From assembly GCA_029209985.1 (NCBI GenBank), contig JARGNZ010000002.1:1-64000 (forward strand): a stretch of DNA of 64,000 bases, given 5' to 3'. The notes beneath the pieces were generated by a model, which saw only the letters and a program-made list of their open reading frames with translations, made no database searches and was not told the DNA's origin. The position numbers were made by a program, and so were the translations under genes. Origin of the DNA: Parvibaculaceae bacterium. GTDB lineage: Bacteria; Pseudomonadota; Alphaproteobacteria; Parvibaculales; Parvibaculaceae. This document shows positions 4,577 to 44,198 of the stretch, in pieces (the stretch's first letter is position 1; each line of letters starts with the position of its first letter).

Positions 4577-4716
4577 TTCTTTTCCCCCATCTCATGCCTC
4601 CCTCCAATCAAGTTATCCCCGCAATGTACGGAATATGTAATTTTTGACCTATTAAGTAAACTGCCGGTATCGCCATGGCGAGCAGAGGTAGTGGTCCAAA
4701 TAGATGGGAGTGCTGA

Positions 4717-5139: not shown

Positions 5140-5150
5140 ATGAGGTGAAC

Positions 5151-28387: not shown

Positions 28388-28571
28388 GCATCCTCTAAAA
28401 AATATTTAGCGCGCCCTCTTGTATCCGAACGCTGCAATCCCAATTCATTGTATATCAGATAATGTGTCTGGTAGAGCGCACCCCGCGTTCAACTTTCCAA
28501 ACATCATATAGATTTATCCTCCTGCGCAGGTGGGGTGATACCTTATGCATTCATTCTGGGAGTGATCTGCA

Positions 28572-29231
28572 TTGAAGCCTTCTGATGCCGAAGCTTCAGC
28601 CGTGCAACCTGTGGCTGGCGTTCAAAAAACACAGTCCCCACCTGAGCGGGCACAAGCTAAACGTACAATCGGACAAATGCAGTGGGATGAAATAGAGCGC
28701 GCCTATCTGGAAACGACTGAACCCTTGGCGGATTTGGCGAGACGGTTTGGGATTAGTTTTCAACGCATTGTTGCGCATGCCAAAAAACAGGGATGGCCCG
28801 CCCGCCGAATTTCACGGGCCGCGAAAGGGGAGCACTACGGGACGCCAGAAATACTGCCGTCGCACATGAGCGCCCAAGACAAAGCGGAAACAAAAGACGG
28901 TCTGCATACACGGCTGCATAATTTACTCGCTCACCATATTGCCGATGCCGAAGAGAGGCTGGCAAGCATTGGGAGCGGTGTTGAACAAAGCACAGCGGCC
29001 GATAGAGAACGCGATGCCCGCACACTGTCCTCGCTCATACGCACTTTGGAAAAATTGATTGAGCTGGACGACCGCCGGGTTGCCGACGCGAAGAACGCCG
29101 TTGCTGAACAAAAGTTAGAACAGCTTGCACTGACCGAGGGAGAAATGGGTGACGCAGAAGACATGCGAACAGAATTGGACCGCCGCTTCCGTCGCCTTGC
29201 AAAGCTCCATCGCCCGACAGAAATGGATTGA
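28572..29231 (+). CDS. GTA g1, putative small terminase subunit
   Basis: 219 aa from TTG 28572, with GGGAG upstream; an internal ATG at 28677 has no ribosome site. A helix-turn-helix lies at about 43-75 ('IERAYLETTEPLADLARRFGISFQRI'). A long coiled region follows, with 'LSSLIRTLEKLIELDDRRVADAKN', as expected for an oligomeric TerS. Its place just before the large terminase, overlapping it by 83 bases, fits RcGTA g1. In GTAs this subunit has lost sequence-specific pac recognition, allowing near-random packaging. The assignment rests mainly on context. Confidence 0.7.
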   Translation: MKPSDAEASAVQPVAGVQKTQSPPERAQAKRTIGQMQWDEIERAYLETTEPLADLARRFGISFQRIVAHAKKQGWPARRISRAAKGEHYGTPEILPSHMSAQDKAETKDGLHTRLHNLLAHHIADAEERLASIGSGVEQSTAADRERDARTLSSLIRTLEKLIELDDRRVADAKNAVAEQKLEQLALTEGEMGDAEDMRTELDRRFRRLAKLHRPTEMD

Positions 29232-30459
29232 AAGTTTAAGTGCCCAAGAGGCATCTTTTTTATGTCACGACTGGCCATTTTGGGCCCGCGCAGACCAATT
29301 AGCCCCTAAGAAAGATTGGACATCTTGGTTGATACTTGGTGGGCGCGGCGCAGGAAAAACGCGCGCGGGCGCAGAATGGGTGCGGGCCCAAAAGGAACAC
29401 TGCCAGCACATTGCCTTGGTCGGAGAAACTTACGGAGATGCGCGGTCGGTCATGGTGGAAGGCCCATCGGGATTGTTGGCCATTGCCCCGCCAAATGATC
29501 GGCCACATTTTGAACCTTCCCGCCATCGTTTGGTCTGGGGGAATGGGGCGGTGGCTACTTTGTATTCAGCCAGCGACCCCGAAAGCCTACGCGGTCCGCA
29601 ATTTGATGCTGCTTGGTGTGATGAGTTGGCAAAATGGCGATACGGCCAAGCGTGTTGGGACATGTTGCAATTTGGCTTGAGGTTGGGAGAGCGCCCGCGC
29701 CAAGTGGTGACGACAACACCGCGTCCGGTGCCGCTGTTGAAAAAGTTGATGGCGGACCCGCATACGGTGATCAGCAGGGCAAGTACCTATGCAAACCGTG
29801 CAAATTTAGCACAGGCATTTTTCGACAGCGTGGTGACGGCCTATGAGGGCACGCGGCTGGGACGGCAAGAATTGAACGCAGAATTGTTGGAAGACAATCC
29901 AGATGCTCTATGGACCAGAGATATTATTGAGGCGGGGCGCCAATTAACAGCACCAGCATGCATACGGATTGTAGTTGCCATTGATCCGCCGGTAACAAGT
30001 GGTCCTGATGCCGACGAATGCGGCATTGTTGCCGTGGGCTTGGATGCACAAGGGGGCTTTTATGTTTTGGAGGACCTCTCCAAAGGCGGATTAAAACCGG
30101 CTGAATGGGCCAGCCGCGCCATTGGCGTGTTTGACCGTTTGAAGGCAGACCGAGTGGTCGCTGAGGTCAATCAAGGTGGAGAGATGGTGGAGGCAGTTTT
30201 GCGCCAAATCGCCCCGCATGTTTCTTTTAGAGCGGTGCGGGCAACCAAAGGCAAGGCCATACGCGCAGAACCTGTTGCAGCCTTGTACGAACAAGGCCGG
30301 GTGCATCACTTGGGACAATTGGCCAGACTAGAAGACCAGCTGTGTGAATTTGTGCCGGGTGTGACCCGCAAAAGCCCTGACCGAATGGATGCGCTCGTTT
30401 GGGGCATCACCGATTTGATGGGAGCTGGGGCCGGGCGCCCCCGTGTTCGAAACCTCTAA
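29149..30459 (+). CDS. GTA g2, large terminase (DNA packaging ATPase-nuclease)
   Basis: 436 aa from GTG 29149, with GAGGGA upstream. It is the motor that pumps DNA into the head and cuts it. Walker A GGRGAGKT is at 64-71. 'FDAAWCDELAKW' near 152-163 holds the Walker B acidic residues. The nuclease domain begins 'VVAIDPPVTSGPDADECGIV', with further Asp in 'DRVVAEVNQGGEMVE'. The N-terminal 'SWLILGGRGAGKTRAGAEWVR' is diagnostic for the alphaproteobacterial GTA/HK97-like TerL. Confidence 0.95.
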   Translation: MTQKTCEQNWTAASVALQSSIARQKWIESLSAQEASFLCHDWPFWARADQLAPKKDWTSWLILGGRGAGKTRAGAEWVRAQKEHCQHIALVGETYGDARSVMVEGPSGLLAIAPPNDRPHFEPSRHRLVWGNGAVATLYSASDPESLRGPQFDAAWCDELAKWRYGQACWDMLQFGLRLGERPRQVVTTTPRPVPLLKKLMADPHTVISRASTYANRANLAQAFFDSVVTAYEGTRLGRQELNAELLEDNPDALWTRDIIEAGRQLTAPACIRIVVAIDPPVTSGPDADECGIVAVGLDAQGGFYVLEDLSKGGLKPAEWASRAIGVFDRLKADRVVAEVNQGGEMVEAVLRQIAPHVSFRAVRATKGKAIRAEPVAALYEQGRVHHLGQLARLEDQLCEFVPGVTRKSPDRMDALVWGITDLMGAGAGRPRVRNL

Positions 30460-30478
30460 TTGACACAAAGGAGACATC

Positions 30479-31696
30479 ATGGGGACCACGACTAAGGGAG
30501 CAACCGCTACTGGTTTGCTGTCGCGTGCACTGCAACGGGTTAAGCCTGCCAAATCGGCCAGCCCGAGTGAGGTGAAGGCCAGCAGAACCGGTCCATTGGT
30601 GGCCATGCAAATGATGGGGCGTCCCGTGTGGTCGGGCCGAGACTATATCTCTTTTGCCCATGAAGGGTTTGAGCGCAATCCCGTCGTGCATCGGTGTGTA
30701 CGAGTGATTGCGGAAGCAGCGGCGTCTGTACCTTGGGTGCTTCACGAGGGCCGCCAAGAGCTGGATGCACATCCCTTGTTAGATGTTCTGACGCGGCCCA
30801 ACCCGGCTCAAGGAGGCGGGGATTTATTGGAAAATTGGTACGGACATTTGTTGGTGGCCGGGAATGCTTATCTTGAGGTTGTAGAAATTTCGGGTGCACC
30901 GAAGGAACTACATGTTTTACGCCCAGACCGCATGAAAGTTGTGCCCGGAATGCAAGGGTGGCCTGCCCGGTATGAATACACAGTGGCAGGGCGCACGATT
31001 TCATTTGATCAAACCGACGCCCCAGCCATTTTGCACATGCGGATGTTTCACCCAACGGACGATCACTATGGCTTGTCGCCGATGGAGGCCGCAGCTTATG
31101 CAGTTGATATTCACAATGCCGCCGCCGGGTGGAACAAGGCTTTGATTGACAATTCGGCACGCCCGTCGGGGGCTCTGGTTTATCAAGGAGCGGATGGAAA
31201 TCGCTTTTTGTCTGAAGAGCAATTTGAGCGCCTTAAAGGGGAGCTGGAGAACAACCACCAGGGAGGCGGTAATGCAGGGCGGCCTTTGCTTTTAGAAGGG
31301 GGACTGGATTGGAAGCAAATGAGTCTATCTCCCAAGGAAATGGATTTTGCGGAAGCCCGCAACGGCGCGGCCCGTGACATTGCCTTGGCTTTCGGCGTGC
31401 CACCGATGTTGCTTGGCATCCCCGGGGATAACACCTACGCCAATTACCGTGAGGCCAATGTTGCGCTATGGCGTCAAACCGTTCTGCCACTGGTGGCGCG
31501 TGCCTCCCGCGCATTGGGGAACTGGCTTGCCCCGCGCTATGAAGGGCGGCTGAAGCTGTCTTATAACTTGGACAATATTCCCGCGTTGAATGCCGAGCGA
31601 GATGCCCTATGGGACCGCCTCAACCAAGCAAGCTTTCTGGATGACGCAGAAAAACGCCAAGCCGTTGGCTACGGGGAAAGGCAGGGGGGAGAATGA
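30479..31696 (+). CDS. GTA g3, phage portal protein
   Basis: 405 aa, HK97-type portal, the dodecameric ring at the head vertex through which DNA passes. Typical pieces are 'NPVVHRCVRVIAEAAASVPWVL', 'NAYLEVVEISGAPKELHVLRPDRM', 'LSPMEAAAYAVDIHNAA' and 'GVPPMLLGIPGDNTYANYREA'. ATG 30479 has AAAGGAGA upstream. The ATGA overlap at the end couples it to g3.5. Confidence 0.96.
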   Translation: MGTTTKGATATGLLSRALQRVKPAKSASPSEVKASRTGPLVAMQMMGRPVWSGRDYISFAHEGFERNPVVHRCVRVIAEAAASVPWVLHEGRQELDAHPLLDVLTRPNPAQGGGDLLENWYGHLLVAGNAYLEVVEISGAPKELHVLRPDRMKVVPGMQGWPARYEYTVAGRTISFDQTDAPAILHMRMFHPTDDHYGLSPMEAAAYAVDIHNAAAGWNKALIDNSARPSGALVYQGADGNRFLSEEQFERLKGELENNHQGGGNAGRPLLLEGGLDWKQMSLSPKEMDFAEARNGAARDIALAFGVPPMLLGIPGDNTYANYREANVALWRQTVLPLVARASRALGNWLAPRYEGRLKLSYNLDNIPALNAERDALWDRLNQASFLDDAEKRQAVGYGERQGGE

Positions 31697-31962
31697 GTAC
31701 ATCCCCAAATGAAGCGGGCAGATGGCATTTGGATAAGCGGGTGCCGATTGCCTTGATCGTTGTCATTCTCATGCAAACAGCGGGGGCATTAAGTTGGGCG
31801 GGCGCAGCCACGCAACGCCTCGCGCAAGTGGAACGGCTTACACAAGCACAATCGGGTTGGGCGGAACGAACAGCCCGGCTAGAGGAGCAATCTCATCATC
31901 TGCGCACCTCGTTGCAGCGCATCGAAGAAAAATTGGATGACTTGGCGAAAGCCCAGCGTTGA
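31693..31962 (+). CDS. GTA g3.5-like small membrane protein
   Basis: 89 aa. A transmembrane helix at about 18-38 ('IALIVVILMQTAGALSWAG') is followed by a coiled coil to the end ('LAQVERLTQAQSGWAERTARLEEQ'). RcGTA has a small ORF, g3.5, in this position between portal and protease. Its role is not established. The membrane-plus-coil layout could suit a holin- or spanin-like role, but nothing here shows that. It overlaps g3 by four bases. Confidence 0.75.
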   Translation: MSTSPNEAGRWHLDKRVPIALIVVILMQTAGALSWAGAATQRLAQVERLTQAQSGWAERTARLEEQSHHLRTSLQRIEEKLDDLAKAQR

Positions 31963-32000
31963 ACAGCGACTGCGGTTCATTTTATGATTTCAGGAGTGCC

Positions 32001-32687
32001 ATGACCAGATCTCTCGCAAAAAATTCTCTGGAGCAAAAACGCGCAGCATTTGAATGCCGTAAGCTGAGCGATACCGGACAGTTCGAAGGTTATGCCAGCC
32101 TCTTTGGTGCAGAAGACTTAGGCCGTGATGTGGTGCGCAAAGGGGCTTTTAGCAAGTCGCTTTCGCAACGAGGAGCAGGCGGAGTCAAATTGCTTTTTCA
32201 ACATGATCCCGCTGAACCCATTGGCGTGTGGGACCGTATTCAGGAAGACCAAAACGGTCTGTATGTGCAAGGGCGGCTATTGATGGAAGTGGCCCGCGCC
32301 CGCGAAGTCCATGCATTGATGAAAGCAGGGGCGCTAGATGGTTTGTCCATAGGGTTTCATACCAAACGCGCACAAACCGACCGAAAAACGGGGCAGCGAC
32401 ATTTGCTGGAAGTTGATCTTTGGGAAATTTCAATTGTGACGTTTCCCATGCACCCTGATGCGCGGATCCGCTCTGTCAAACGCATGGGCGGTGAGGCACG
32501 GATGCCGACCCCGCGCGAAATTGAACACTCCCTCCGGCGGGATGCCGGACTGAGCCGTAACCAAGCCCGCGCGCTGATTGCGGGCGGTTACAAAACCCTC
32601 CGACCACTGCGCGACGCAGGCCCAGAGGGATGGACGAGCGTGCTTGGCACGCTGGAAGCTGCCCGTGAACGGATAGCTTTAACCTAG
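32001..32687 (+). CDS. GTA g4, HK97 family prohead protease
   Basis: 228 aa from ATG 32001, with CAGGAG upstream; the frame opens at 31959 without a site. It cleaves the delta domain of the capsid protein during head maturation. The catalytic His is in 'LLFQHDPAEPIG' and the Ser in 'GLSIGFHT'. The last 60 residues ('REIEHSLRRDAGLSRNQARALIAGG') form the scaffold-like tail typical of these enzymes. Confidence 0.95.
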   Translation: MTRSLAKNSLEQKRAAFECRKLSDTGQFEGYASLFGAEDLGRDVVRKGAFSKSLSQRGAGGVKLLFQHDPAEPIGVWDRIQEDQNGLYVQGRLLMEVARAREVHALMKAGALDGLSIGFHTKRAQTDRKTGQRHLLEVDLWEISIVTFPMHPDARIRSVKRMGGEARMPTPREIEHSLRRDAGLSRNQARALIAGGYKTLRPLRDAGPEGWTSVLGTLEAARERIALT

Positions 32688-32711
32688 AACCCAAACAGAA
32701 CTGGAAACACG

Positions 32712-34028
32712 ATGTCAACGATCCGCATGAAAAACGGAAGCGGTGGTCTTACGCGTCTTTTTGCAGATGGCCAACCTGCCCAAATGGAAACAAAAAGTCA
32801 TTCTTTCTCAGACCCCGCCCCGCACGAAGTCCGCGACGCAGTGGATGAATTTATGTCAGCTTTTGACGAATTCAAAAGCGCAAACGATGATCGTCTTGCT
32901 CAGTTGGAACGCAAGCTGTCAGCAGATGTGGTCACCGAAGAAAAAGTCAACCGTCTCAACTCTGCCCTCGACCTCCAACAAAAAACGGTTGAAGGCCTAA
33001 CACTCTCCATGCGCCGCACCCCGCTGGGGAGCAATGGCGGCCCCGTTGACCCCGCCACACAGGAACACAAGGCCGCATGGGAAGCCTATGTGCGCAATGG
33101 CCAAGCTGCGACATTGCGGCCTCTGGAAGCCAAAGCCTTATCTGCGGGGAGCGACACAGACGGGGGCTATTTGGTACCCACCGAAACTGAAACCATGATT
33201 GACCGAGCCGTGGCGCAAGCTTCACCCATTCGGGCAATTTCGGGTGTGCGCCAAATTGGGGGCAGCAGTTACCGCAAACCATTTGCTACCTCGGGGCCAG
33301 AAACAGGCTGGGTGGGTGAGACCGCAGGTCGCCCAGAAACCGATACGCCGGTTCTCTCAGAGCTGGAATTTCCAGCGATGGAAATTTATGCGATGCCAGC
33401 GGCCACTCAAAGTCTACTGGACGACAGTGCTGTCAATATTGAGCAATGGTTGGCGGAAGAAGTGCAACTGGCATTTGCCGAGCAAGAAAGTACCGCCTTT
33501 GTGACCGGCGACGGCACTGCCAAACCCAAAGGCTTTTTAGCTTATACGCAGGTGGACAACGACAGCTGGACGTGGGGAAAGTTGGGCGTGTTGGGAACCG
33601 GCGTGGCGGGGGGCTTTCCAACGTCTGATCCAGCAGACAAATTGATCGATCTGATTTATTCGGTGAAGTCTGGATACCGAGCCAATGGCCACTTTGTGAT
33701 GAACGGTCAAACACTCAGCCAAATTCGTAAATTCAAAGACGCTGATGGGAATTACATTTGGCAACCCTCGTTGACACCGGGCGAGCTGTCGCGTGTGTTG
33801 AATGTGCCTGTCGCTGAATCTGAGGATATGCCGTCCATTGCGACTGATACGTGTGCCATTGCTTACGGTGATTTTAAGCGGGGTTACCTTGTGGTCGACC
33901 GGGTGGGGGTGCGCGTGTTGCGCGATCCATATTCGGCCAAGCCCTATGTGCTGTTCTACACAACCAAACGTGTAGGCGGCGGTGTCCAAAACTTCGAGGC
34001 GATTAAGCTCTTGAAGTTCTCATCATAA
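32712..34028 (+). CDS. GTA g5, HK97-fold major capsid protein
   Basis: 438 aa. Residues 1-110 form a coiled-coil delta domain ('AVDEFMSAFDEFKSANDDRLAQLERKL') to be removed by g4. The HK97 shell domain follows: 'SAGSDTDGGYLVPTETETMIDRAVAQASPIRAI', 'TPVLSELEFPAMEIYAMPAATQSLLDDSAVNIE', 'AFVTGDGTAKPKGFL' and 'YGDFKRGYLVVDRVGVRVLRDPY'. It assembles the GTA head. A perfect 12-bp hairpin lies 12 bases after the stop. Confidence 0.97.
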   Translation: MSTIRMKNGSGGLTRLFADGQPAQMETKSHSFSDPAPHEVRDAVDEFMSAFDEFKSANDDRLAQLERKLSADVVTEEKVNRLNSALDLQQKTVEGLTLSMRRTPLGSNGGPVDPATQEHKAAWEAYVRNGQAATLRPLEAKALSAGSDTDGGYLVPTETETMIDRAVAQASPIRAISGVRQIGGSSYRKPFATSGPETGWVGETAGRPETDTPVLSELEFPAMEIYAMPAATQSLLDDSAVNIEQWLAEEVQLAFAEQESTAFVTGDGTAKPKGFLAYTQVDNDSWTWGKLGVLGTGVAGGFPTSDPADKLIDLIYSVKSGYRANGHFVMNGQTLSQIRKFKDADGNYIWQPSLTPGELSRVLNVPVAESEDMPSIATDTCAIAYGDFKRGYLVVDRVGVRVLRDPYSAKPYVLFYTTKRVGGGVQNFEAIKLLKFSS

Positions 34029-34040
34029 CAACGTTGAGCG

Positions 34041-34073
34041 CGCCCCGGTTTGTCGCAGGAGCAAACCGGGGCG
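34041..34073 (+). other. Perfect 12-bp hairpin after the capsid gene
   Basis: CGCCCCGGTTTG at 34041-34052 is exactly complementary to 34062-34073, with a 9-base loop. There is no T-run after it, so it is not a standard intrinsic terminator. It could stabilise the capsid mRNA or mark a processing point that makes capsid more abundant than the downstream proteins. Confidence 0.8.
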
Positions 34074-34109
34074 GCGACAATAAGGGCCGACAACTGGGGA
34101 AGGATGCCA

Positions 34110-34553
34110 ATGACAGAGATGATAACACGAGATGACGGACGCCCACCGGTGCTCTCCAATGGACGCTTGTTGCAAACTTTGCCGCCCGCATTGAGTGACA
34201 CCGATAGATTTGGCCTGCCTGTTGACGCTCTTGATGCACAATGGGTTGCTCATGTCGTGCAGATCGGAACATGCCAAAATAAATTGAATGAAGCCCGGCA
34301 CATAAACCTGTCGTTAGAGCAGTCTCAGTGCGGCGCTGTATGGATGCCTGTTCCGGTGTCGGTCGGGCCAACAATCACGTCAAACCATTTCGCCTGTATA
34401 GACGATCAATCACTTGATGGGCACGCTTATGGAAAAGTGTATGTGCCGGGCACCCGTTTTAGCCGAGTGCGCATCGACTTTGTCGGCGTGTGTGAAGAGC
34501 CTGTGCCCATGTCTGCGCTGGCATTGGTTGGTCCTCTCAAAGTGACCTCGTGA
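34110..34553 (+). CDS. Unrecognised protein inserted between GTA capsid and connector genes
   Basis: 147 aa from ATG 34110, with GGAAGG six bases upstream; a TTG at 34050 sits inside the hairpin and is rejected. There is no signal peptide or transmembrane helix. After a polar N-terminus the sequence is beta-rich: 'QWVAHVVQIGTC', 'NLSLEQSQCGAVWMPVPVSV', 'AYGKVYVPGTRFSRVRIDFVGVC', with four Cys. The RcGTA order goes directly from g5 to g6, so this gene is extra. Its position fits a head protein such as a decoration, vertex or stability factor. That is inference only. Confidence 0.75.
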   Translation: MTEMITRDDGRPPVLSNGRLLQTLPPALSDTDRFGLPVDALDAQWVAHVVQIGTCQNKLNEARHINLSLEQSQCGAVWMPVPVSVGPTITSNHFACIDDQSLDGHAYGKVYVPGTRFSRVRIDFVGVCEEPVPMSALALVGPLKVTS

Positions 34554-34613
34554 TCGAGTAACTCCAGTAACTCTTGCCACACGTTCATTTCATTCCTAAC
34601 GAAGGAGGCTTTC

Positions 34614-35189
34614 ATGACGCTTGTCTTGAAGAGCGGCCCTGCGCTTGAGCCGATTACGCTTACGACCGCAAAGTCACATGTGCGGGTGACGCATGAGGCA
34701 GATGATACGCTCATTGGTGGATTGATTACCTCTGCACGTCTCACCGTGGAGGCCATTACTCGGTCTGCGTTGATCACACAATCGTGGTCTCTCATTGTAG
34801 ATGACTGGGGGGCGCGTCGCAGCCTCAACCTGCCGCTGGCTCCGGTCATGTCTCTTGATCGCATTAGCTTGTGGGACGAGGCGGGCACAAAGAGCGATGT
34901 GGGAACCGAGTTTTGTCATTTAGGACTGGGTGCCCAAGCAAAACTGACACTCAACCGAAACGCATGCTGGCCAACCCCTCTGCGTGAGGCCAGCGGTATA
35001 TGCATCGATTTTACAGCTGGTTATGGAGATACGGTTGAGGATGTACCTGCCCCCCTGCGCCAAGCCACATTGCACCTCATCGCCCATTGGTATGAGCACC
35101 GGGGAGAGGCATCCCTTTCCGATCTGACAATGCCTGTGCCGGCAAGCGTTGGGGAGCTGGTGCGTCCATACCGCCAGATGCACCTATGA
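34614..35189 (+). CDS. GTA g6, head-tail connector protein
   Basis: 191 aa with a strong GAAGGAGG before ATG 34614. Phage_connect_1-type features include 'LEPITLTTAKSHVRVTHEADDTLIGGLITSARLTVEAITRSALITQSW' (shown in parts) and 'PAPLRQATLHLIAHWYEHRGE'. It forms the adaptor ring under the portal. The stop overlaps the next start as ATGA. Confidence 0.93.
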   Translation: MTLVLKSGPALEPITLTTAKSHVRVTHEADDTLIGGLITSARLTVEAITRSALITQSWSLIVDDWGARRSLNLPLAPVMSLDRISLWDEAGTKSDVGTEFCHLGLGAQAKLTLNRNACWPTPLREASGICIDFTAGYGDTVEDVPAPLRQATLHLIAHWYEHRGEASLSDLTMPVPASVGELVRPYRQMHL

Positions 35190-35506
35190 TTGGTCGGTTG
35201 CGCCATAGGTTAATCCTCGAAGCCTTATCAACCAGCGCAGATGGGGGCGGCGGTGTCGCCGATGCATGGCAGGAGGTCGCAACCATTTGGGCCGCCCTGA
35301 CCCCCGCGCGTAGTTTTGCGGAAAGCCGTGGAGGCAAACCGGAAGCTCAAATGGGCCATAAGGTTTTGATGCGTTACAGGCCAGACCTTACGGCAACAAT
35401 GCGCTTTCGTGCAGGCCAACGCATTTTCCTCATCCAAGCCATTCGTAACGTAGAAGAGCGCGGCGTTTATCAAGAGGTTCTTTGTATCGAAAGGAGCGTC
35501 TCATGA
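35186..35506 (+). CDS. GTA g7, head closure (head-tail adaptor) protein
   Basis: 106 aa, matching the SPP1 gp16-type head closure family. It begins 'MIGRLRHRLILEALS', then 'WQEVATIWAALTPARSFAESRGGKPEAQMGHKVLMRYRPDL' (in parts) and 'RAGQRIFLIQAIRNVEERG'. It sits between g6 and g8 with ATGA overlaps on both sides. Confidence 0.93.
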   Translation: MIGRLRHRLILEALSTSADGGGGVADAWQEVATIWAALTPARSFAESRGGKPEAQMGHKVLMRYRPDLTATMRFRAGQRIFLIQAIRNVEERGVYQEVLCIERSVS

Positions 35507-35913
35507 GTATGGTCTCGCTTTGGCCCTTACAAAAAGCCCTATACGCCCATTTGGTCGCTGATCCCGATGTCTCTATCAGCTTGGGCGGGGCGCGGCTTTA
35601 TGACGAAGTGCCAACGGCAGCGCTTTACCCCTATGTCACCTTTGGTGCGGCGACCTCAAGCCCCTTAGGCGAGGATAGCAATGCAAGTGCGGCCCATAGA
35701 GTGACACTTAATGTGTGGTCGCAGCGGCGTGGCAGCGGACAAGCAAAGCAAGTTCTTTCCGCATTGGCAGCAGCCCTTGAAGAAACCACCCTCACCGTGT
35801 CGGGGGCTGTGTTGGTGAGTTTGCAGGTGACTGAGCTTGAGTGTGACTGGGACCAAGAAGATTTGTTGACCAAGGGCAGCTTGACCTTACGTGCGGTGAC
35901 ACATAGCGCATAG
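35503..35913 (+). CDS. GTA g8, DUF3168 tail terminator-like protein
   Basis: 136 aa from ATG 35503, with AAAGGAG upstream. DUF3168 features: 'LQKALYAHLVADPDVS', 'VPTAALYPYVTFGAATSSPLGEDS', 'AHRVTLNVWSQRRGSGQAKQVLSAL'. In RcGTA this is the tail terminator that closes the tail tube to the head. Confidence 0.94.
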   Translation: MSMVSLWPLQKALYAHLVADPDVSISLGGARLYDEVPTAALYPYVTFGAATSSPLGEDSNASAAHRVTLNVWSQRRGSGQAKQVLSALAAALEETTLTVSGAVLVSLQVTELECDWDQEDLLTKGSLTLRAVTHSA

Positions 35914-35942
35914 CCGTTTCATTTATAAGACAGGAAAGCATT

Positions 35943-36359
35943 ATGACAATTCAACGGGGCAAAGACCTCCTCCTCAAACTCGATAGCACAGGATCAAGTG
36001 CATTTGTCACCATTGCCGGGCTACGCGCGCGGTCCATTTCGTTAAATGCAGGGACCGTCGATGTCACGCATTCAGAATCCGAAGGAGAATGGCGTGAGCT
36101 GTTAGCCGGGGCGGGTGTGCGCAGTGCGAGCTTGTCGGGGGCGGGGTTGTTTACCGATGGGGCAGCTGATGCGGCAATACGGCAGGTCTTTTTTTCCGGC
36201 GTTCTGCGGGCATGGCAAGTCATTCTGCCGGACTTCGGCACACTTGAAGGGTTGTTCCAGATTTCAGCCTTGGAATTTAGCGGGCAGCATGACCGGGAAT
36301 TGACGTTTGAAATATCGATGGAGTCGGCAGGTACGTTGACGTTCACGGAGGCCTCATAA
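35943..36359 (+). CDS. GTA g9, major tail tube protein
   Basis: 138 aa of the TP901-1-type major tail protein family: 'GKDLLLKLDSTGSSAFVTIAGLRARSISLNAGTVDVTHSES', then 'WRELLAGAGVRSASLSGAGLF' and 'LEFSGQHDRELTFEISMESAG' (strands given in parts). It polymerises into the tail tube. AGGAAAG lies upstream. The stop and next start overlap as TAATG. Confidence 0.95.
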   Translation: MTIQRGKDLLLKLDSTGSSAFVTIAGLRARSISLNAGTVDVTHSESEGEWRELLAGAGVRSASLSGAGLFTDGAADAAIRQVFFSGVLRAWQVILPDFGTLEGLFQISALEFSGQHDRELTFEISMESAGTLTFTEAS

Positions 36360-36745
36360 TGGTAAATCGACACAGAGGTGAAATGAGCATCCAGATGAAT
36401 GGCACCCCGCAGAAGCTCTGTCTTACGTTGGGGGCCTTGGCAGACTTGGAAGACCGATACGGAGGGAAAAATATTCTCGCATTGGTCGATACATTTGCCG
36501 CAAAAGGTTTGAGTGCAAACGATGTGACCAATGTCTTGCGGGCAGGACTGCAAGGCGGTGGGGCAGAACTCCAAGATGAGGCCCTCATGGCGGCCCAATT
36601 TGACGGGGGCTTTGCAGGGGCAGTCCGTGCGGCCACGATGTTGCTCAAAATTTCTTTTGGGCTGGACGATACACAGGTCCCCGCCGCAGACCCAGCCCCC
36701 CGCGAGGTTGTTGATGAACCAGCCCCTTTCCCTGGCGTGGTTTGA
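36359..36745 (+). CDS. GTA g10, tail assembly chaperone family protein
   Basis: 128 aa. The N-terminus 'MVNRHRGEMSIQMNGTPQKLCLTLGALADLEDRYG' (in parts) is the hallmark of the GTA g10 family. The C-terminus is Pro/Asp-rich. It probably chaperones the tape measure together with g10.1, like phage G/GT proteins. The stop TGA overlaps the TTG start of g10.1. Confidence 0.93.
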   Translation: MVNRHRGEMSIQMNGTPQKLCLTLGALADLEDRYGGKNILALVDTFAAKGLSANDVTNVLRAGLQGGGAELQDEALMAAQFDGGFAGAVRAATMLLKISFGLDDTQVPAADPAPREVVDEPAPFPGVV

Positions 36746-36918
36746 TACGTGCATGTGCGGGGCATCTCAAAATTTCTCCGGATGAATTTTGGCAGCTGCG
36801 GGTGGCGGATCTTTCAATGTTGCTGGGGGGAGAGGCCACTTCTGGGCATGTGGACCGCCGCACACTTGATGACCTGCAGAAGGCATACCCGGACAACAGC
36901 AGCATAGTGGAGAGATAA
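36742..36918 (+). CDS. GTA g10.1, small tail assembly chaperone
   Basis: 58 aa, found by reading the gap between g10 and g11. TTG 36742 overlaps the g10 stop in the form TTGA, giving translational coupling. The family motif is clear: 'LKISPDEFWQLRVADLSMLLGG', then 'VDRRTLDDLQKAYPD'. This matches the short TIGR02216 / rcc01693-type proteins (S-P-x-E-F-W and L-x-x-L-x-x-x-(Y/F)-P-D). The downstream g11 starts four bases after its stop. Confidence 0.88.
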   Translation: MIRACAGHLKISPDEFWQLRVADLSMLLGGEATSGHVDRRTLDDLQKAYPDNSSIVER

Positions 36919-36922
36919 CCCA

Positions 36923-37567
36923 ATGGCTTTGGAAGATCAAAAGGCCCTAGATGATTTGAGAAAAAACCTTCAACTTTTCAGAGTTGAACTGGATATGGCC
37001 AACAAGGATACAGCCCGGTTCTCCTCGCAAAGCCGGAATTCTATTGGAGCGGTGTCGCGGGAAGCGAGTGCGCTCAGTGTAGAAAGCAAGCGCATGGGCA
37101 CTGCGCTAAGTTCTGCTTTTTCTGACATTATCTTAAAAGGGAAAGATGTTGGCGATGTTCTGAGCGACCTTGCCTTAAAACTTGCAGATGTTGCGCTCGA
37201 TCAAATCTTCTCCCAAGGAGGTGGCTCTGGTGGTCTCGACAGCCTATGGAAAAACCTCATACCCAGTGCCAAGGGGAATGTATTTTCTAACGGTTCTCTA
37301 GAGCCTTTCGCCAACGGTGGCGTGGTGTCCAGTCCCACACTTTTTCCATTGCAAAATGGAACGGGCTTAGCGGGAGAAGCAGGGGCCGAGGCAATCCTGC
37401 CCTTGGCGCGGGGCCGTGATGGCCGTTTGGGGGTCCGTACCCAAGGGGGTGCCGGGCAAGTGACCTTGAACATTTCCACACCTAATGCGGACAGTTTTCT
37501 AAAAGCTGAAGGGCAAGTCGCGGCCATGGTGGCTCGCGTGACCGCACGCGCCTCTCGCAACCAATAG
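36923..37567 (+). CDS. GTA g11, tail tape measure protein
   Basis: 214 aa, a normal length for a GTA, whose tails are short compared with phages. The N-terminal half is coiled coil ('ALDDLRKNLQLFRVELDMANK'). A hydrophobic segment follows ('GDVLSDLALKLADVALDQIF'), then Gly-rich 'QGGGSGGLDSL'. The conserved tail reads 'FANGGVVSSPTLFPLQNGTGLAGEAGAEAILPLARGRDGRLGV' (in parts). It sets tail length and likely passes through the tube during DNA delivery. Confidence 0.94.
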   Translation: MALEDQKALDDLRKNLQLFRVELDMANKDTARFSSQSRNSIGAVSREASALSVESKRMGTALSSAFSDIILKGKDVGDVLSDLALKLADVALDQIFSQGGGSGGLDSLWKNLIPSAKGNVFSNGSLEPFANGGVVSSPTLFPLQNGTGLAGEAGAEAILPLARGRDGRLGVRTQGGAGQVTLNISTPNADSFLKAEGQVAAMVARVTARASRNQ

Positions 37568-37591
37568 CTACGTTCGTGAAAGGAGGTCTAC

Positions 37592-38227
37592 ATGAGTTTT
37601 CATGACATTCAATTTCCTACCGACATTTCCTTACATTCTGTTGGAGGGCCGGAGCGCAGAACGCAAATCGTGACACTTGCCTCTGGGCATGAAGAACGAA
37701 ATAGTCCGTGGGCGCATTCGCGTCGGCGGTATGAGGCAGGCTATGGCATTAAGACCCTTGATGAGTTGCATGTGGCCATTGCCTTTTTCGAGGCCCGCTT
37801 TGGGAAGCTGTACGGTTTTCGATGGCATGATCCAATTGATTACAAGTCTTGCCTTCCCACGCATACCATTGCCCCAGACGATCAATTTTTAGGAACGGGC
37901 GATGGCACGCGACGGGCATTTCAGTTGCAAAAAACATATGCCTCAGGGGAGGAAAGCTATACGCGGCCCATTACAAAACCCATTGGGGAAAGTGTTATTG
38001 TCGCCTCCAATAACATGGTTGTAGATAGTGAAAGTTATCATTGCGACGCGGCAACGGGCATCATCACCTTTGATAGCTTTTCTACGCCAGCACCGGGAGA
38101 TGTGATCACCGCAGGTTATGAATTTGATGTGCCCGTGCGGTTTGACACCGATGCGCTCAAAATTGACCTTGCTGCATTTGCTGCTGGGGAAATCCCAAAC
38201 TTGCCAGTGATCGAGGTGAAAAGCTAA
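37592..38227 (+). CDS. GTA g12, DUF2460 distal tail protein
   Basis: 211 aa with AAAGGAGG before ATG 37592. Family (TIGR02217) features: 'FHDIQFPTDISLHSVGGPERRTQIV', 'RRRYEAGYGIKTLDELHVAIAFFEARFGKLYGFRWHDP' and 'VRFDTDALKIDLAAFAAGEIP' (in parts). It forms the distal tail ring at the baseplate. It ends TAATG with g13. Confidence 0.96.
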   Translation: MSFHDIQFPTDISLHSVGGPERRTQIVTLASGHEERNSPWAHSRRRYEAGYGIKTLDELHVAIAFFEARFGKLYGFRWHDPIDYKSCLPTHTIAPDDQFLGTGDGTRRAFQLQKTYASGEESYTRPITKPIGESVIVASNNMVVDSESYHCDAATGIITFDSFSTPAPGDVITAGYEFDVPVRFDTDALKIDLAAFAAGEIPNLPVIEVKS

Positions 38228-39123
38228 TGCTCGACCTTCATCCAGATCTCAAGAGCCACCTACTGACAGGCACAACAACACTTTGCAACTGTTGGAAACT
38301 AACTCCCAGAGGCAAGTTGCCATTGGGCTTTACTGATCATGATGTCACGCTTTCCTTTGAAGGCGTGGTCTATGAAGCCGCCGCCGGGTTTACCGCAAGC
38401 GCCATTGAGGCCCAGTCGGGGCTTGCTGTTGACAATCTTGATGTCATTGGCGCGCTTGAATCTGACAAGCTGAATGATGCTGATTTGGCGGTCGGGGTTT
38501 TTGATGATGCGGAGATTGAAATTTGGCGCGTGAATTGGCAACAGCCAGAAGCTCGTGTGTTACTGCGCAAGGGTAACATCGGTGAAGTGTCGCGCGGCAC
38601 GCTCGGCTTTCGAGCGGAGGTGCGCGGGCTTGCACATCGCTTGAATCAAGCCTCTGGCCGGTTGTTTCAATATGCGTGTGATACTGAACTGGGGTCATCC
38701 CGGTGCGGCATCAATCTGACGGATGCTTTGTATCAAACCACAGCAACAGTGACATCGATTGTGGGGGAGCGAGAGTTCACTTTAGCTGGCGCCAGCTCTT
38801 ACGCTGACCAATGGTTTACGCGAGGCGTGGTTGACGTGAACACCGGCGAAAACTCTGGACGCCAAGGAGAAATCAAAGAGCATCAAAAGAATGCAGAGAC
38901 TGTGCGTATTCTTCTTTGGCACCCAATGCCTAAGCCCATCGTGATTGGGGATGAGATGGTTTTAACCGCGGGATGCGACAAAAATTTTAGCACGTGTAAA
39001 TCCAAATTCAGCAATGGCGCACGGTTTCAAGGCTTTCCCCATATGCCGGGAAATGACTATGTGGTGTCGTATCCATCGAAGGGAGGCGCCTATGATGGTG
39101 GATCACGCAATGGTGGCGCCTAA
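38227..39123 (+). CDS. GTA g13, DUF2163 baseplate hub protein
   Basis: 298 aa of the TIGR02218 family: 'LLTGTTTLCNCWKLTPRGKLPLGFTDHDVTLSFEGVVYEA' (in parts), 'LLRKGNIGEVSRGTLGFRAEVRGLAHRLNQ', and a Cys cluster 'YACDTELGSSRCGINL' with C-terminal 'TAGCDKNFSTCKSKFSN'. The RcGTA homologue carries an Fe-S cluster in the baseplate hub, and these four Cys would be the ligands. The last 32 bases overlap g14. Confidence 0.95.
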   Translation: MLDLHPDLKSHLLTGTTTLCNCWKLTPRGKLPLGFTDHDVTLSFEGVVYEAAAGFTASAIEAQSGLAVDNLDVIGALESDKLNDADLAVGVFDDAEIEIWRVNWQQPEARVLLRKGNIGEVSRGTLGFRAEVRGLAHRLNQASGRLFQYACDTELGSSRCGINLTDALYQTTATVTSIVGEREFTLAGASSYADQWFTRGVVDVNTGENSGRQGEIKEHQKNAETVRILLWHPMPKPIVIGDEMVLTAGCDKNFSTCKSKFSNGARFQGFPHMPGNDYVVSYPSKGGAYDGGSRNGGA

Positions 39124-39583
39124 CTTTATGGACGGTGCGACGGTCGTGGAAAATGCCCGCGCATGGATTGGTACACCGTACCGCCATCAAGCAAGTTGCA
39201 AGGGCGCGGGAACGGATTGTTTGGGGCTGATACGTGGGCTTTACCGAGAGCTATATGGGCGCGAACCTGAAATGCTGCCCCCCTATAGTGCCGCATGGGC
39301 TGAAACATCCCCCCACGCACCCCGCGAGATGATGTTTCAGGCTGCACGTCGCCACCTCATTGAAATAGATACCGCAGACGCCCGCCCGGGGGATGTGTTG
39401 TTGTTTCGCATGAGACAAGAACAGCCGATGAAACATGCGGCCATTCAAAGCAGGGCGTCATGCATGATACACGCTTACGCCCGCCACTGCGTCGCAGAGA
39501 CATCTATCGGCCCCTGGTGGCAAGCCCGGTTGGCTGCTGCATTTCGGTATCCGTCAAAAGCGGTTCTTCACGCCTTGCCATAG
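39092..39583 (+). CDS. GTA g14, NlpC/P60 cell wall peptidase
   Basis: 163 aa from ATG 39092, with GGGAGG upstream; a frame opening at 39014 is rejected. The catalytic Cys is in 'GAGTDCLGLIRGLYRELYG', His in 'MKHAAI' and a third polar residue in 'HAYARHCV'. It hydrolyses peptidoglycan cross-bridges during tail penetration of the recipient. It overlaps g13 by 32 bases. Confidence 0.95.
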   Translation: MMVDHAMVAPNFMDGATVVENARAWIGTPYRHQASCKGAGTDCLGLIRGLYRELYGREPEMLPPYSAAWAETSPHAPREMMFQAARRHLIEIDTADARPGDVLLFRMRQEQPMKHAAIQSRASCMIHAYARHCVAETSIGPWWQARLAAAFRYPSKAVLHALP

Positions 39584-39595
39584 AAAGAGAATGTC

Positions 39596-42500
39596 ATGTC
39601 ATCAATGGTCTTATCCTCCGTGGGCAGCTCCCTCGGCACAACACTGCTGCCAGAAGGCATCAACCTGCTGGGCATGAACATTGCGGGAGATGCGCTTGGA
39701 CAGGCGATTGGAGCATCCTTGGGCGCGGTGATTGATCAAGCTCTTTTTGGGAGCAATGTTGTCAATCACGAAGGCCCGCGCTTATCTGACTTATCCGTGC
39801 AAGCCAGTACAGAAGGCGCGGCCATTCCACGTCTTTATGGACGTGCTCGATTGGGCGGGCAGCTTATTTGGGCGACAAATTTTCTGGAACACAAAAGCAG
39901 TCAAGATACGGGGGGCAAGGGAGGCGGTGGATCGGTGACGTCCTATAGCTATAGTGCCTCTTTTGCCGTGGGCTTATGCGAAGGCGAGGTGGCACGCTTA
40001 GGACGCGTATGGGCAGATGGTGAGGAATGGGATTTAGCAGATACGACGTATCGGTTTTATCGAGGCACGAGCGGTCAATCCCCCGATCCCCTGATAGAGG
40101 CAAAAGAAGGGATGGGAAACGTGCCGTCTTATAACGGCTTGAGCTATATTGTATTTGAAGATCTACCTCTTAAAGAATTTGGCAACCGTATCCCGCAGCT
40201 AAATTTTGAGATTTTCCGTCCCCTGAGCTCGTTGGAAGATCAGGTCACGGCTGTCACCATTATTCCCGGCGCGACGGAGTATGGCTATGATACGCAGGTG
40301 CAGCGGCAGGTGTTTTTTGACGGGGTTACCACAGCCGAAAACGCGCATTCCTCTGAAACGGGAAGCGACTGGACCGTCTCGCTCAATCAACTGCAAGACA
40401 CATGTACGAACTGCACACGCGCCGCTCTTGTGGTCAGTTGGTTCGGGGATAACTTGGCGGCAAATCACTGCACTGTCCGCCCCAAAGTTGAAAACCACCT
40501 GAAACTTATTACGCCTGATCCATGGGGCGTTGCGGGGCTGAGCCAAGGGGAGGCAACGCAAGTCAGCATATTGGACGGATACCCCGCCTATGGGGGAACG
40601 CCTTCTGACAGCGCCGTTAAACGCGCCATTCAAGACATGAAAGAGCGCGGCCTTGAGGTGATGTTCTATCCCTTTATTCTGATGGACATTCCCCCTGATA
40701 ACACATTGGCAAACCCGTATGGTGGTGCGCCGGGGCAACCATCACATCCATGGCGCGGGCGCATCACCCTATCGACGGCACCCGGAGAAGTGGGCTCTCC
40801 TGACGGGAGTGCGGAGGCAGAAAGCGAAGTAGGGGCCTTCTTCGGTAGCAGCGTTCCCGGCGGCTCAGAATGGTCGTATCGGCGGATGGTGCTTCACTAT
40901 GCACATTTGTGTGCGCAGGTTGGAGGTGTGGAAAGTTTTTTGCTGGGCTCTGAGCTTAAAGGCCTTACGGGCATTCGCGGTGTGGGCGGCAACTATCCGG
41001 CGGTGACGGCATTGGAAACTTTAGCCGCTGACGTGCGCGCTATTTTAGGGCCTGACACGAAAATTTCATACGCGGCCGATTGGTCAGAGTATGGCGCCTA
41101 TGCGCCGCCAGATGCGAGTGGCACAGTGGACTTTCCGCTCGACAGTCTCTGGGCCCATGCAGATATCGATTTTATCGGCATTGATAATTATATGCCGTTG
41201 TCAGACTGGCGTGATGGCAGTACGCATTTAGACATTGAAGACGGATGGGACGGGCCGCATCAAAAGGAATATCTTCAGCATAATATAACCGCAGGAGAGG
41301 GCTTTGAGTGGTACTATGCCAGCCCTGCTGACCGGGAAAGCCAAACACGCACACCGATTACAGATGGCGCGTATCACAAGCCGTGGGTTTGGCGTTTTAA
41401 GGACCTGCGCAGCTGGTGGGAAAATGCACATGTGCCTCGGGTGGGCGGTGTGGAGCTGGCGTCTGCAACAAATTGGGTGCCGGAGAGCAAGCAAATTTAT
41501 TTTACCGAGCTTGGGTTTCCAGCCGTAGACAAGGGCACCAACCAACCCAACAGTTTTATAGATGGAAAGTCGAGCGAAAGCGCATTGCCCTATTTTTCCG
41601 ATGGCCGTCGGGATGACTTTCTGCAGCGCCAAGCCCTACAAGCTGTGCTCGACTATTGGGACCGTTCCCTGCATCCAATGCCTGATAGTGCCAATCCGCT
41701 CTCGTCCGTCAATGGCGCGCCAATGGTCGCTCATGATAGAATTTATTTATGGACATGGGACGCGCGCCCCTATCCTGCGTTTCCACAACTAGCAGACGTT
41801 TGGTCTGATGGGGTAAATTGGCAGCTGGGTCATTGGCTCAATGGGCGGTTGGGGGCAGCGCCACTTGCAGACTTAGTAAGAGAAATTCTGACGGATGTCG
41901 GGTTCCACAATTTTGATGCGGCGCAATTGTTAGGACAGGTTGAAGGGTACATCATCAACCGAACCATCTCTCCACGTGCCGCGATTGAACCTTTGATGCT
42001 TAGTTACTTTTTCTCAGTTGCAGAGAGTGAGGGGATGTTAAACTTTCAGCATCTCAATAAAACTGTGGGAAATGAGTTTCATTGGCAGGGCTTTTCTGTG
42101 CCTGCACAAGAAACAAGCAGTGCCTATACCATCACACGCAAACAAGAAACCGAATTACCCAAAACCGCAAAGATGACGTTCATCGATGCTGATGGGGGGT
42201 ACCGCCAAGCTGTTGTGGAAGGGCGCAAGGGGCATGTAACGAGTGAGCACACAGCCACAGCGGACTTGCCGATAATCTTGCGGGCAGCTGAGGCGCAATC
42301 AACAGTTGATAAATGGATTCAAAATGCTTGGGTGGAACGGGAGGCCGTGGCTTTTCGGGTACCGCCGTCTGCGTTGCATTTAGGCGTTGGCGATGTGGTG
42401 GAGCTGAACTTAGAGGGGCGCTCTGGCACATTCCGTATTACAAAAATAACAGATGAGCTGGACCGACAGGTGGAGGCCAAAGCAACTGAGTTGAGCGTAT

Positions 42501-43495
42501 TCTCAGAAATAGCGGCGAGTGAGCGGGTTTACGCGTTGCCGCAACCAACCGTTTATGGACCTGCCGACCTCATCTTTCTTGACCTGCCCCTTATCCAGGG
42601 AACAGAAGTTCCCCATCAACCCCATGTCGCTCTCTATGCTGATCCGTGGCCGGGGAGCGTTTCCTTGTTGCGCAGCGCAAGTGGTGAAAACTTTACGCTA
42701 GATCAAATGCTGACCTCTCTTTCGGTCATGGGACGGTTGGAAAGTGTGTTAGCGACAGGACCGGAAAGCCGGTGGGACAGGGGCAATAAGGTGCGTGTGA
42801 CCCTTTCATCAGGCGTTTTAGAAAACGTGTCCACATTGAGCCTATTGGAAGGCCATAACCGATGTGCGATCCAATCGGCCACCGGCGTGTGGGAGGTGGT
42901 GCAATTTAGAGATGCTGAGTTGGTGGCTACCAATCAGTTTGAATTGTCCATGCTGTTGCGCGGGCAATTTGGTTCTGAAAAAGCGATGTATGTGGGGCAC
43001 CCCGTCGGCAGTCGGTTTGTGCTCTTAGAGGGGAGCATGGCGCAAGCGGGCGTAACCCTAGCCGAGCGGGAGTTGGAACTTAATTGGTTGTATGGACCCA
43101 CCGACAAAGCCATCTCTGATGATGTCTATTTGACCCAACACATGACACCCCACGCAGTGGGCCTGAAGCCGCTCAGCCCAGTACATGTGAGGGGGCACCG
43201 TTTGGAAAATGGTGACGTAGCGGTCACTTGGGTGAGGCGCTCGCGTATAGACGCGGACAATTGGAGCAGTTTGAGCGTGCCGGTTGGTGAAGAGCTTGAA
43301 ATGTATGAGGTGGAAGTCATGCACGGCGCAGAAGTCGCCCGCGTGCTGTCAGCATATAGCCCCGCCGTCATTTACACCGCCGCCGACCAAACGACAGACT
43401 TTGGCAGCCCCGTTGCCGAAGTGACTTTACGTATTTATCAACTCAGCCAAACGGTTGGAGCTGGGACAAAAAGAGAGGCCATTCTTCATGTCTGA
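39596..43495 (+). CDS. GTA g15, baseplate multidomain 'megatron' hub protein
   Basis: 1299 aa. The N-terminal hub begins 'VLSSVGSSLGTTLLPEG'. The GTA TIM-barrel-like domain lies at about 300-720, with 'RGLEVMFYPFILMDIP', 'FIGIDNYMPLSDWRDG' and 'YFTELGFPAVDKGTNQPN'. A Phage-tail_3-type domain follows ('PRAAIEPLMLSYFF', 'VEREAVAFRVPPSALHL'), then the receptor-proximal C-terminal region ('EFELSMLLRGQFGSE' type strand). The barrel resembles glycosidases, but GTA versions may not be active enzymes. It is the tail tip hub contacting the recipient cell. The stop overlaps the DUF2793 start. Confidence 0.96.
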   Translation: MSSMVLSSVGSSLGTTLLPEGINLLGMNIAGDALGQAIGASLGAVIDQALFGSNVVNHEGPRLSDLSVQASTEGAAIPRLYGRARLGGQLIWATNFLEHKSSQDTGGKGGGGSVTSYSYSASFAVGLCEGEVARLGRVWADGEEWDLADTTYRFYRGTSGQSPDPLIEAKEGMGNVPSYNGLSYIVFEDLPLKEFGNRIPQLNFEIFRPLSSLEDQVTAVTIIPGATEYGYDTQVQRQVFFDGVTTAENAHSSETGSDWTVSLNQLQDTCTNCTRAALVVSWFGDNLAANHCTVRPKVENHLKLITPDPWGVAGLSQGEATQVSILDGYPAYGGTPSDSAVKRAIQDMKERGLEVMFYPFILMDIPPDNTLANPYGGAPGQPSHPWRGRITLSTAPGEVGSPDGSAEAESEVGAFFGSSVPGGSEWSYRRMVLHYAHLCAQVGGVESFLLGSELKGLTGIRGVGGNYPAVTALETLAADVRAILGPDTKISYAADWSEYGAYAPPDASGTVDFPLDSLWAHADIDFIGIDNYMPLSDWRDGSTHLDIEDGWDGPHQKEYLQHNITAGEGFEWYYASPADRESQTRTPITDGAYHKPWVWRFKDLRSWWENAHVPRVGGVELASATNWVPESKQIYFTELGFPAVDKGTNQPNSFIDGKSSESALPYFSDGRRDDFLQRQALQAVLDYWDRSLHPMPDSANPLSSVNGAPMVAHDRIYLWTWDARPYPAFPQLADVWSDGVNWQLGHWLNGRLGAAPLADLVREILTDVGFHNFDAAQLLGQVEGYIINRTISPRAAIEPLMLSYFFSVAESEGMLNFQHLNKTVGNEFHWQGFSVPAQETSSAYTITRKQETELPKTAKMTFIDADGGYRQAVVEGRKGHVTSEHTATADLPIILRAAEAQSTVDKWIQNAWVEREAVAFRVPPSALHLGVGDVVELNLEGRSGTFRITKITDELDRQVEAKATELSVFSEIAASERVYALPQPTVYGPADLIFLDLPLIQGTEVPHQPHVALYADPWPGSVSLLRSASGENFTLDQMLTSLSVMGRLESVLATGPESRWDRGNKVRVTLSSGVLENVSTLSLLEGHNRCAIQSATGVWEVVQFRDAELVATNQFELSMLLRGQFGSEKAMYVGHPVGSRFVLLEGSMAQAGVTLAERELELNWLYGPTDKAISDDVYLTQHMTPHAVGLKPLSPVHVRGHRLENGDVAVTWVRRSRIDADNWSSLSVPVGEELEMYEVEVMHGAEVARVLSAYSPAVIYTAADQTTDFGSPVAEVTLRIYQLSQTVGAGTKREAILHV

Positions 43496-44198
43496 ATCTC
43501 ATCACCTATCGCTTCCCTATGTGCAAGCCTCGCAAGCTCAAAAACACGTGACGGTCAATGAGGCGTTGCAAAAGCTAGATGCGCTTGTGCAATTAAGTGC
43601 GCTCTCGCAAACGCTAAGCGTACCACCTGTAAGCCCGGCAGAAGGGGCGCGCTATATTGTGGCCCCCGCAGCAACGGGGGGCTGGCTTGGATGGGAGGGA
43701 AGCCTTGCCCACTGGGAAGAGGGCGCGTGGGTGAAATACACCCCGGCGAACGGTTGGCAATGCTGGGTGGAGGACGAAGCCTCCTTGGTGACATATATTG
43801 GGGGAGCATGGCGTGAAGGCGGTGACAAAACAATTTTGGGACAAACACCTTCTGGGGCACAAGCAGTTATTCATAGCATTGAAACCGAACATGTGATTTC
43901 TGCTGGTCTCAGCAACGAGACAAGTCTTCTCATCCCCAACAAAGCAATGGTGTTCGGGTTAACCGGCACCGTGACAACCGAGATTGTGGGGCCGTCTGAT
44001 TGGGCTTTAGGTGTTGGCGCGGATCATTTTCGATATGGCAATGGTCTGGGCATTGCCGAAGCAAGCACGGTTATTGGCATCAGCAGTACGCCCCTGACTT
44101 ATTGGTCTGACACGCCGATTGTGGTGCGCGCCAATGGAGGTTACTTTGTCAGCGGGGCGCTCCGCCTAAGTTTAAGTTACCTAGCCTTGACGGCCTGA
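43488..44198 (+). CDS. DUF2793 protein coupled to GTA g15
   Basis: 236 aa from ATG 43488, overlapping the g15 stop by eight bases. The DUF2793 core is near the N-terminus: 'LSLPYVQASQAQKHVTVNEALQKLDALVQL', 'PAEGARYIVAPAATGGWLGWEGSLAHWEEGAWVKYTP' and 'GWQCWVEDE' (in parts). The C-terminal half is beta-rich and Gly/Thr-rich. DUF2793 proteins recur in GTA and prophage loci and are thought to be adsorption or fibre parts. The coupling here supports a structural role. Confidence 0.85.
   Translation: MSESHHLSLPYVQASQAQKHVTVNEALQKLDALVQLSALSQTLSVPPVSPAEGARYIVAPAATGGWLGWEGSLAHWEEGAWVKYTPANGWQCWVEDEASLVTYIGGAWREGGDKTILGQTPSGAQAVIHSIETEHVISAGLSNETSLLIPNKAMVFGLTGTVTTEIVGPSDWALGVGADHFRYGNGLGIAEASTVIGISSTPLTYWSDTPIVVRANGGYFVSGALRLSLSYLALTA

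Follow-up and report, generated by a model that had tools for sequence, protein, structure and literature searches.

A probable RcGTA-type gene transfer agent cluster in a Parvibaculaceae bacterium, with a putative capsid cement gene and linked candidate control genes

Introduction

Among the closest described systems to the locus presented here is RcGTA, the gene transfer agent (GTA) of Rhodobacter capsulatus (Rhodogtaviriformidae), which shares its head-tail genes and their order and provides the closest solved structures for g3, g5, g13 and g15. The RcGTA head-tail block has no counterpart of the gene we call X, which our locus carries between g5 and g6. Its tail fibre gene, rcc00171 (DUF2793 family), is found at another locus, whereas the fibre gene described here adjoins g15, and its activator is the fused GafA, whereas our locus is preceded by separate gafY-like and gafZ-like genes about 23 kb upstream. 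CcGTA of Caulobacter crescentus, like our locus, has separate gafY and gafZ activator genes (PMC9632790, PMC11150451), whose products act under repression by RogA (PMC9632790). In Caulobacterales the repressor gene rogA lies beside lysS (PMC13420450), whereas in our locus an XRE-type gene is divergent from gafY.

Among phages, the siphophages MW202777 and OP947159 (the latter a Desulfofustis phage) resemble our locus in having X after the capsid gene and a megatron gene followed, with an 8-base overlap, by a gene in the DUF2793 position. Unlike our locus, they carry a long tape measure gene and a helicase gene, and they are records of complete phages. The marine siphophage R4C combines an RcGTA-like tail with an undecorated capsid (PMC10276861).

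GTA-Hunter predicted RcGTA-like clusters in 2 of 5 Parvibaculales genomes, and the searched text of that paper does not describe X (PMC6821227). Since GTAs of Parvibaculales are thus already known, the cluster reported here extends a known kind, bringing a well-documented GTA type, with its full gene content, to another lineage. What is new is X as a jellyroll protein associated by prediction with the capsid, the presence of X in the nearest phages, and a set of linked control genes.

Gene content and order of the cluster

We analysed a stretch of 64,000 nucleotides from a Parvibaculaceae bacterium (assembly GCA_029209985.1, contig JARGNZ010000002.1, positions 1 to 64,000), hereafter the window. 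A previous sequence-only reading of this DNA had described genes g1 to g15 together with g3.5 and g10.1, all in order on one strand, and Pfam, PHROGs and NCBIfam searches, aided by relatives in the cases of g1 and g3.5, bear this out. Homologues of all RcGTA head-tail genes lie in RcGTA order on the forward strand within 28572-44198, where the RcGTA-order block itself spans 28572-43495 (+) and the DUF2793 gene then extends to 44198. Chance is far from enough to explain the whole ordered gene set.

The putative small terminase gene g1 (28572..29231), with an uncertain TTG start, has a weak family match to the phrog_1206 small terminase (E 8.8e-6), and g3.5 (31693..31962) matches only an unnamed PHROG (phrog_19911, E 3.7e-6); both were recovered at the equivalent places in relatives. 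The large terminase gene g2 (29149..30459, start at 29149 or 29197) matches PF03237 and PF17289 (Terminase_6). It is followed by the portal gene g3 (30479..31696; PF04860, best PDB match RcGTA 6tba, E 1.8e-135), the S78 prohead protease gene g4 (31959..32687; PF04586, TIGR01543) and the HK97-type major capsid protein gene g5 (32712..34028; PF05065, best PDB match RcGTA Rcc01687, E 5.5e-91). Beyond X (34104..34553) lie the connector genes, namely the head-tail adaptor g6 (34614..35189; PF05135, phrog_442), the head closure g7 (35186..35506; PF05521) and the tail terminator g8 (35482..35913, start at 35482, 35503 or 35509; PF11367).

The tail genes comprise the tail tube g9 (35943..36359; PF06199), g10 (36359..36745; PF11836, GTA-gp10), the tail assembly chaperone g10.1 (36742..36918; PF09550, TAC_6, E 2.6e-12), the short tape measure g11 (36923..37567; phrog_1716, E 2.4e-18), the distal tail protein g12 (37592..38227; PF09343, TIGR02217 Rcc01695 family) and the baseplate hub g13 (38227..39123; PF09931 and PF09356, RcGTA 6tba chain at E 3.1e-69). 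The NlpC/P60 peptidase gene g14 (39014..39583; TIGR02219) probably has its real start near 39092-39113, as judged from start codons; the genes with ambiguous ORF starts are g1/g2, X, g8 and g14. The most diagnostic gene is g15, encoding the megatron baseplate protein (39596..43495), which scores 1717.6 bits against GTA_megatron NF048004 (cut-off 800) and matches RcGTA 6tba at E 0. RcGTA chains are the top PDB sequence matches for the portal, capsid, hub and megatron proteins, with R4C second-best for the hub and the megatron. The genes had been described as joined by overlaps of 1-4 bases, which holds for about half of the junctions; the others are gaps of 4-75 bases, and g15 and the DUF2793 gene overlap by 8.

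The host genome (3.09 Mb, 99.8% complete) has a single copy each of the capsid protein, the GTA TIM-barrel protein and the DUF2793 protein, and the nearest reference-genome relatives of the capsid protein are mostly named Parvibaculaceae, Parvibaculum or 'Rhodobiaceae'. Housekeeping genes flank the cluster on both sides, with a penicillin-binding protein, an ABC transporter, sulfite reductase and release factor RF3 upstream and acyl-CoA dehydrogenases, a nitroreductase and a two-component system downstream. No tRNA genes were found in the window.

Relationship to gene transfer agents and phages

We consider the locus very probably to be a vertically inherited RcGTA-type (type I alphaproteobacterial) GTA head-tail cluster of a Parvibaculaceae bacterium, and the cluster probably builds virus-like particles that ferry the host's own DNA to neighbours. 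Phage homologues exist for every gene of the cluster, and the true phages MW202777 and OP947159 share an almost identical structural gene order, including X and the fibre, which would fit a degraded or cryptic prophage with a mere resemblance to a GTA. Such an origin appears highly improbable in light of the capsid tree, the conservation of the cluster in the family and its surroundings. In the capsid tree (62 rows), the gene on which the phylogenetic placement of the cluster is based, a branch with support 99/98 parts 48 GTA rows from 14 phage or prophage rows, and the window capsid groups with the GTAs, in a 15-row Parvibaculaceae GTA clade (support 100/96), and not with the phages, the nearest true phages being MW202777 and OP947159. 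The tape measure is 214 aa long in the window versus about 700 aa in these two phages. The same cluster is present in 25 of the 27 near-complete Parvibaculaceae genomes, as followed by the GTA TIM domain (GTA_TIM). In comparison with the sole genome from the same genus, g15 shows 81% identity (dN 0.12, dS about 2.9, omega 0.04) and the DUF2793 gene 73% (dN 0.20, dS about 2.3, omega 0.08), ratios that are rough because dS is near saturation. For the genes tested, the family-wide presence and low omega values support an inherited GTA under purifying selection.

No integrase, repressor or replication module was found inside the element, and a scan of the cluster and of the main ORFs in its flanks revealed no integrase or replication gene. 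Together with the capsid tree, the matches to RcGTA structures, the short tape measure, the housekeeping flanks and the gafYZ-like pair described below, this upholds the sequence-only reading in its preference for a GTA over a prophage. That reading had also listed integrase, repressor, replication and lysis genes as absent; this stands for integrase, replication and lysis genes in the cluster and scanned flanks, but the window does contain an XRE-type regulator and an activator pair. No GTA lysis cassette was identified, with the caveat that the search for a GH108 endolysin was run without a positive control. The only GTA_holin match, on contig C36, was rejected as a GTA lysis gene, as it sits among P2-like prophage genes. 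The region concerned (L088, 5249-9825 of G000:C36), elsewhere in the host genome, is a P2-like prophage with a GTA_holin_3TM homologue, and as such is a pitfall when counting GTA lysis genes.

We would also like to note that two records filed as phages, MW091529.1 and MW462191.1 (L202 and L203), look like bacterial GTA clusters. Their chromosomal flanks contain efflux genes, cytochrome c biogenesis genes and LysE, their capsids group among Hyphomicrobiales GTAs, and the record of MW091529.1 bears a note on antibiotic efflux.

The DUF2793 tail fibre gene

The gene at 43488..44198 (+) encodes a protein with a DUF2793 domain (PF10983) that also matches a baseplate chain of phage R4C (8gtc_S, E 1.3e-24), and we annotate it as a tail fibre gene. 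DUF2793 has been listed as the tail fibre of RcGTA, with 225 of 293 GTA genomes having it (PMC10883770). The window gene and the end of g15 share 8 bases, from the ATG of the former to the stop of the latter (43488-43495, ATGTCTGA), and an overlap of equal length was found in five other loci (L006, L029, L186, L199 and L218) and in OP947159, while in MW202777 a DUF2793-domain gene follows the megatron gene, by annotation, with an 8-base overlap. The ATGTCTGA overlap between megatron and fibre genes, with variants in distant GTAs and in the Desulfofustis phage, suggests translational coupling. Given a known GTA fibre and a recurring overlap, the DUF2793 gene is a normal component in a phage-like place and no addition.

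The DUF2793 gene and X had been presented as two additions to the RcGTA block, a description that we revise, neither being peculiar to this genome: the former is a known GTA fibre and the latter occurs in most of the family (below). GTA-like phages carry both 'extra' genes at the equivalent positions. This suggests that GTA-like phages keep one piece that RcGTA is without (X) and one that RcGTA has moved (the fibre), and their retention in such phages would help to order the steps from phage to GTA.

Gene X, a putative capsid cement protein

The gene between g5 and g6, previously left as an unrecognised gene after the capsid gene, is predicted to encode a jellyroll capsid cement or decoration protein (34104..34553 (+), start at 34104, 34110 or 34119). 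Sequence searches of Pfam, NCBIfam and the PDB gave nothing reliable for X. Fifteen of 17 X members are matched by phrog_5707, of unknown function, one member weakly matches the Bbp16 Pfam family (E 0.21), and profile searches retrieved no cement protein from the PDB.

X is present in 32 of 40 Parvibaculaceae genomes (24 of the 27 near-complete ones), and each of the 18 family loci covering the site has it between g5 and g6. Of the near-complete genomes, G011 and G038 have neither the GTA TIM domain nor X; in G018, whose assembly is fragmented, the TIM domain is present and X was not found. Four other families have homologues of X in GTA-like clusters (L189, L199/L218, L215/L216 and L217), and homologues are also present in prophages and phages, directly 3' of the capsid gene in those examined. 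A first-round profile search placed X after the capsid gene of both MW202777 (E 1.4e-6) and OP947159 (E 5.5e-8), and the OP947159 counterpart is annotated as 'capsid protein'. Among other capsid loci, X was found in the gap between g5 and g6 in L051 only; the ORFs in this gap of other alphaproteobacterial GTAs were considered as distant homologues of X and rejected, L051 being the sole match.

In relatives, X is under purifying selection, with a median omega of 0.19 and a maximum of 0.38 over 30 pairs. This estimate replaces an earlier ungapped one, in which a loose identity limit gave inflated values. The window copy is the most divergent member of the family, with a branch of 1.73 in the X tree, and is at most 42% identical to its relatives versus 69% for the window capsid; it also carries an N-terminal extension. 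As the window copy is fast-evolving, the function of X there could be relaxed, which is a reason for caution. In the same tree, where the rows L138 and L140 labelled 'phage' actually derive from GTA-like clusters, the X of L199 groups with the phages L204 and L205, apart from the Parvibaculaceae sequences. This gives no clean support for one ancestral origin of X across all GTAs, and separate gains or exchange with phages may have occurred.

AlphaFold2 yielded jellyroll models both for the window X (pLDDT 77.5) and for a family member (pLDDT 88.8). In fold comparisons these models match two prophage proteins best, YomS and XepA (Z 10.9 and 10.4), neither of which is known as a capsid protein. 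The cement protein of phage BPP-1 (3j4u chain H), a jellyroll like X with which we detected no sequence-level homology, matches at Z 9.6-9.8 over 110-112 residues (rmsd 2.8-2.9, 14-16% identity), followed by a Carin1 capsid chain (Z 8.0-8.3) and the KHP40 cement protein (Z 7.2-7.9). X is thus modelled as a jellyroll close to cement proteins, a fold that is common and on its own not specific.

Taken together, position after the capsid gene and modelled fold point to capsid cement or decoration as the likeliest role of X, which we favour with modest confidence. The RcGTA head-spike base is likewise a jellyroll; this protein, Rcc01079, is bound to the capsid as a pentamer on the five-fold vertices (PMC7296036), and X might instead be its functional counterpart, a spike or fibre base on the head that would bind the capsule rather than cement the capsid. 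Carbohydrate-binding jellyrolls are indeed present in the X fold lists, but no fibre partner gene adjoins X in the window, and a PDB search with the X profile hit none of the RcGTA chains. Several phage capsid jellyrolls are among the best scores and Rcc01079 itself is not listed, which does not amount to its exclusion; overall, we regard a spike base as rather unlikely.

The leading fold matches to YomS and XepA, and the fast evolution of the window copy, would fit a helper outside the virion (a chaperone or lysis-related protein like those two) or a gene decaying in the window genome. This we consider unlikely, as X immediately follows the capsid gene in all GTA, prophage and phage cases that we inspected closely, its relatives evolve under purifying selection, and the annotation of the OP947159 counterpart points to the capsid. 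Retaining the cement reading, we infer that X is a decoration protein of phage origin that was kept by the Parvibaculaceae lineage and is missing from most of the other GTA loci examined. It seems somewhat more probable than its opposite that the GTAs of Parvibaculaceae, along with a few others, have a jellyroll cement protein passed down from the phage stage, with RcGTA and most other GTAs examined being without it. Our literature search found no paper describing a GTA cement protein. If a cement protein of the phage stage has indeed been retained, domesticated GTAs would differ in how their capsids are reinforced, and perhaps also in how much DNA they carry or how stable the particles are; in any case, X becomes a testable capsid component.

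Regulatory genes and putative mode of action

The window also contains likely control genes that the sequence-only reading had missed, a gafY-gafZ-like pair and a divergent XRE-type regulator. The gafY-like activator gene (4717..5139 (+); DnaA_C helix-turn-helix, PF08299, E 2.1e-19; at least 44% identical in family loci) overlaps the gafZ-like gene (5118..5939 (+); DUF6456, PF20057, E 5.9e-49), and the pair lies 22-24 kb upstream of the GTA cluster. In this PF20057 and DnaA_C pair the genome has an activator of the GafYZ type. In all 21 family genomes with both genes on one contig, gafZ is upstream of X on the same strand; the distance is 24-36 kb in 20 genomes and 71 kb in the remaining one. 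The XRE-type gene (3989..4576 (-); PF01381/PF13560) is divergent from gafY, and a divergent homologue stands beside gafY in 28 of 30 family gaf loci, the window's included. By analogy with Caulobacter RogA, which represses GafY and GafZ, the divergent XRE protein is a candidate GTA repressor. The linked gafYZ pair, divergent regulator and GTA cluster would make up a compact control system in a group that has been unused for GTA work.

Under the mechanism we propose, stress or growth phase would lift the repression of gafYZ, and GafY and GafZ would then turn on the g1 promoter. Short-tailed particles would pack random host DNA and be freed through cell lysis. X may act as a jellyroll cement (decoration) protein bound to the outer face of the capsid lattice. 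The DUF2793 fibre may sit on the megatron baseplate and bind the recipient.

A putative promoter-like element, CTTG-N6-GAACGCT, precedes g1 at 28418..28433 (+). Similar elements precede g1 in 8 of 28 loci, some of which are close relatives or come from the same genome, versus 0.07 in mononucleotide shuffles. No full CtrA sites were found upstream of g1 or gafY, and no RogA-type GGAA-N4-TTCC repeats between the XRE gene and gafY. Several gafY genes are preceded by TTATCCCC, a DnaA-box-like motif, and this resemblance would suit a GafY of the DnaA_C type. Allowing one mismatch, TTATCCCC also occurs upstream of g1 in 17 of 29 cases versus 5.6 (maximum 12) in mononucleotide shuffles; its positions there are inconsistent, and we did not accept it as a shared GafY site, treating it as a mere hint.

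Between the XRE gene and gafY, positions 4613-4645 contain TTATCCCC followed by a TGTACGAAATATGTAATTT-like stretch, an arrangement also seen in several relatives. Finally, the two near-complete genomes in which the TIM domain and X are absent, G011 (L117) and G038 (L098), have kept gafY, gafZ and the XRE gene, which would mean that these control genes persist after loss of the GTA or have some other role.
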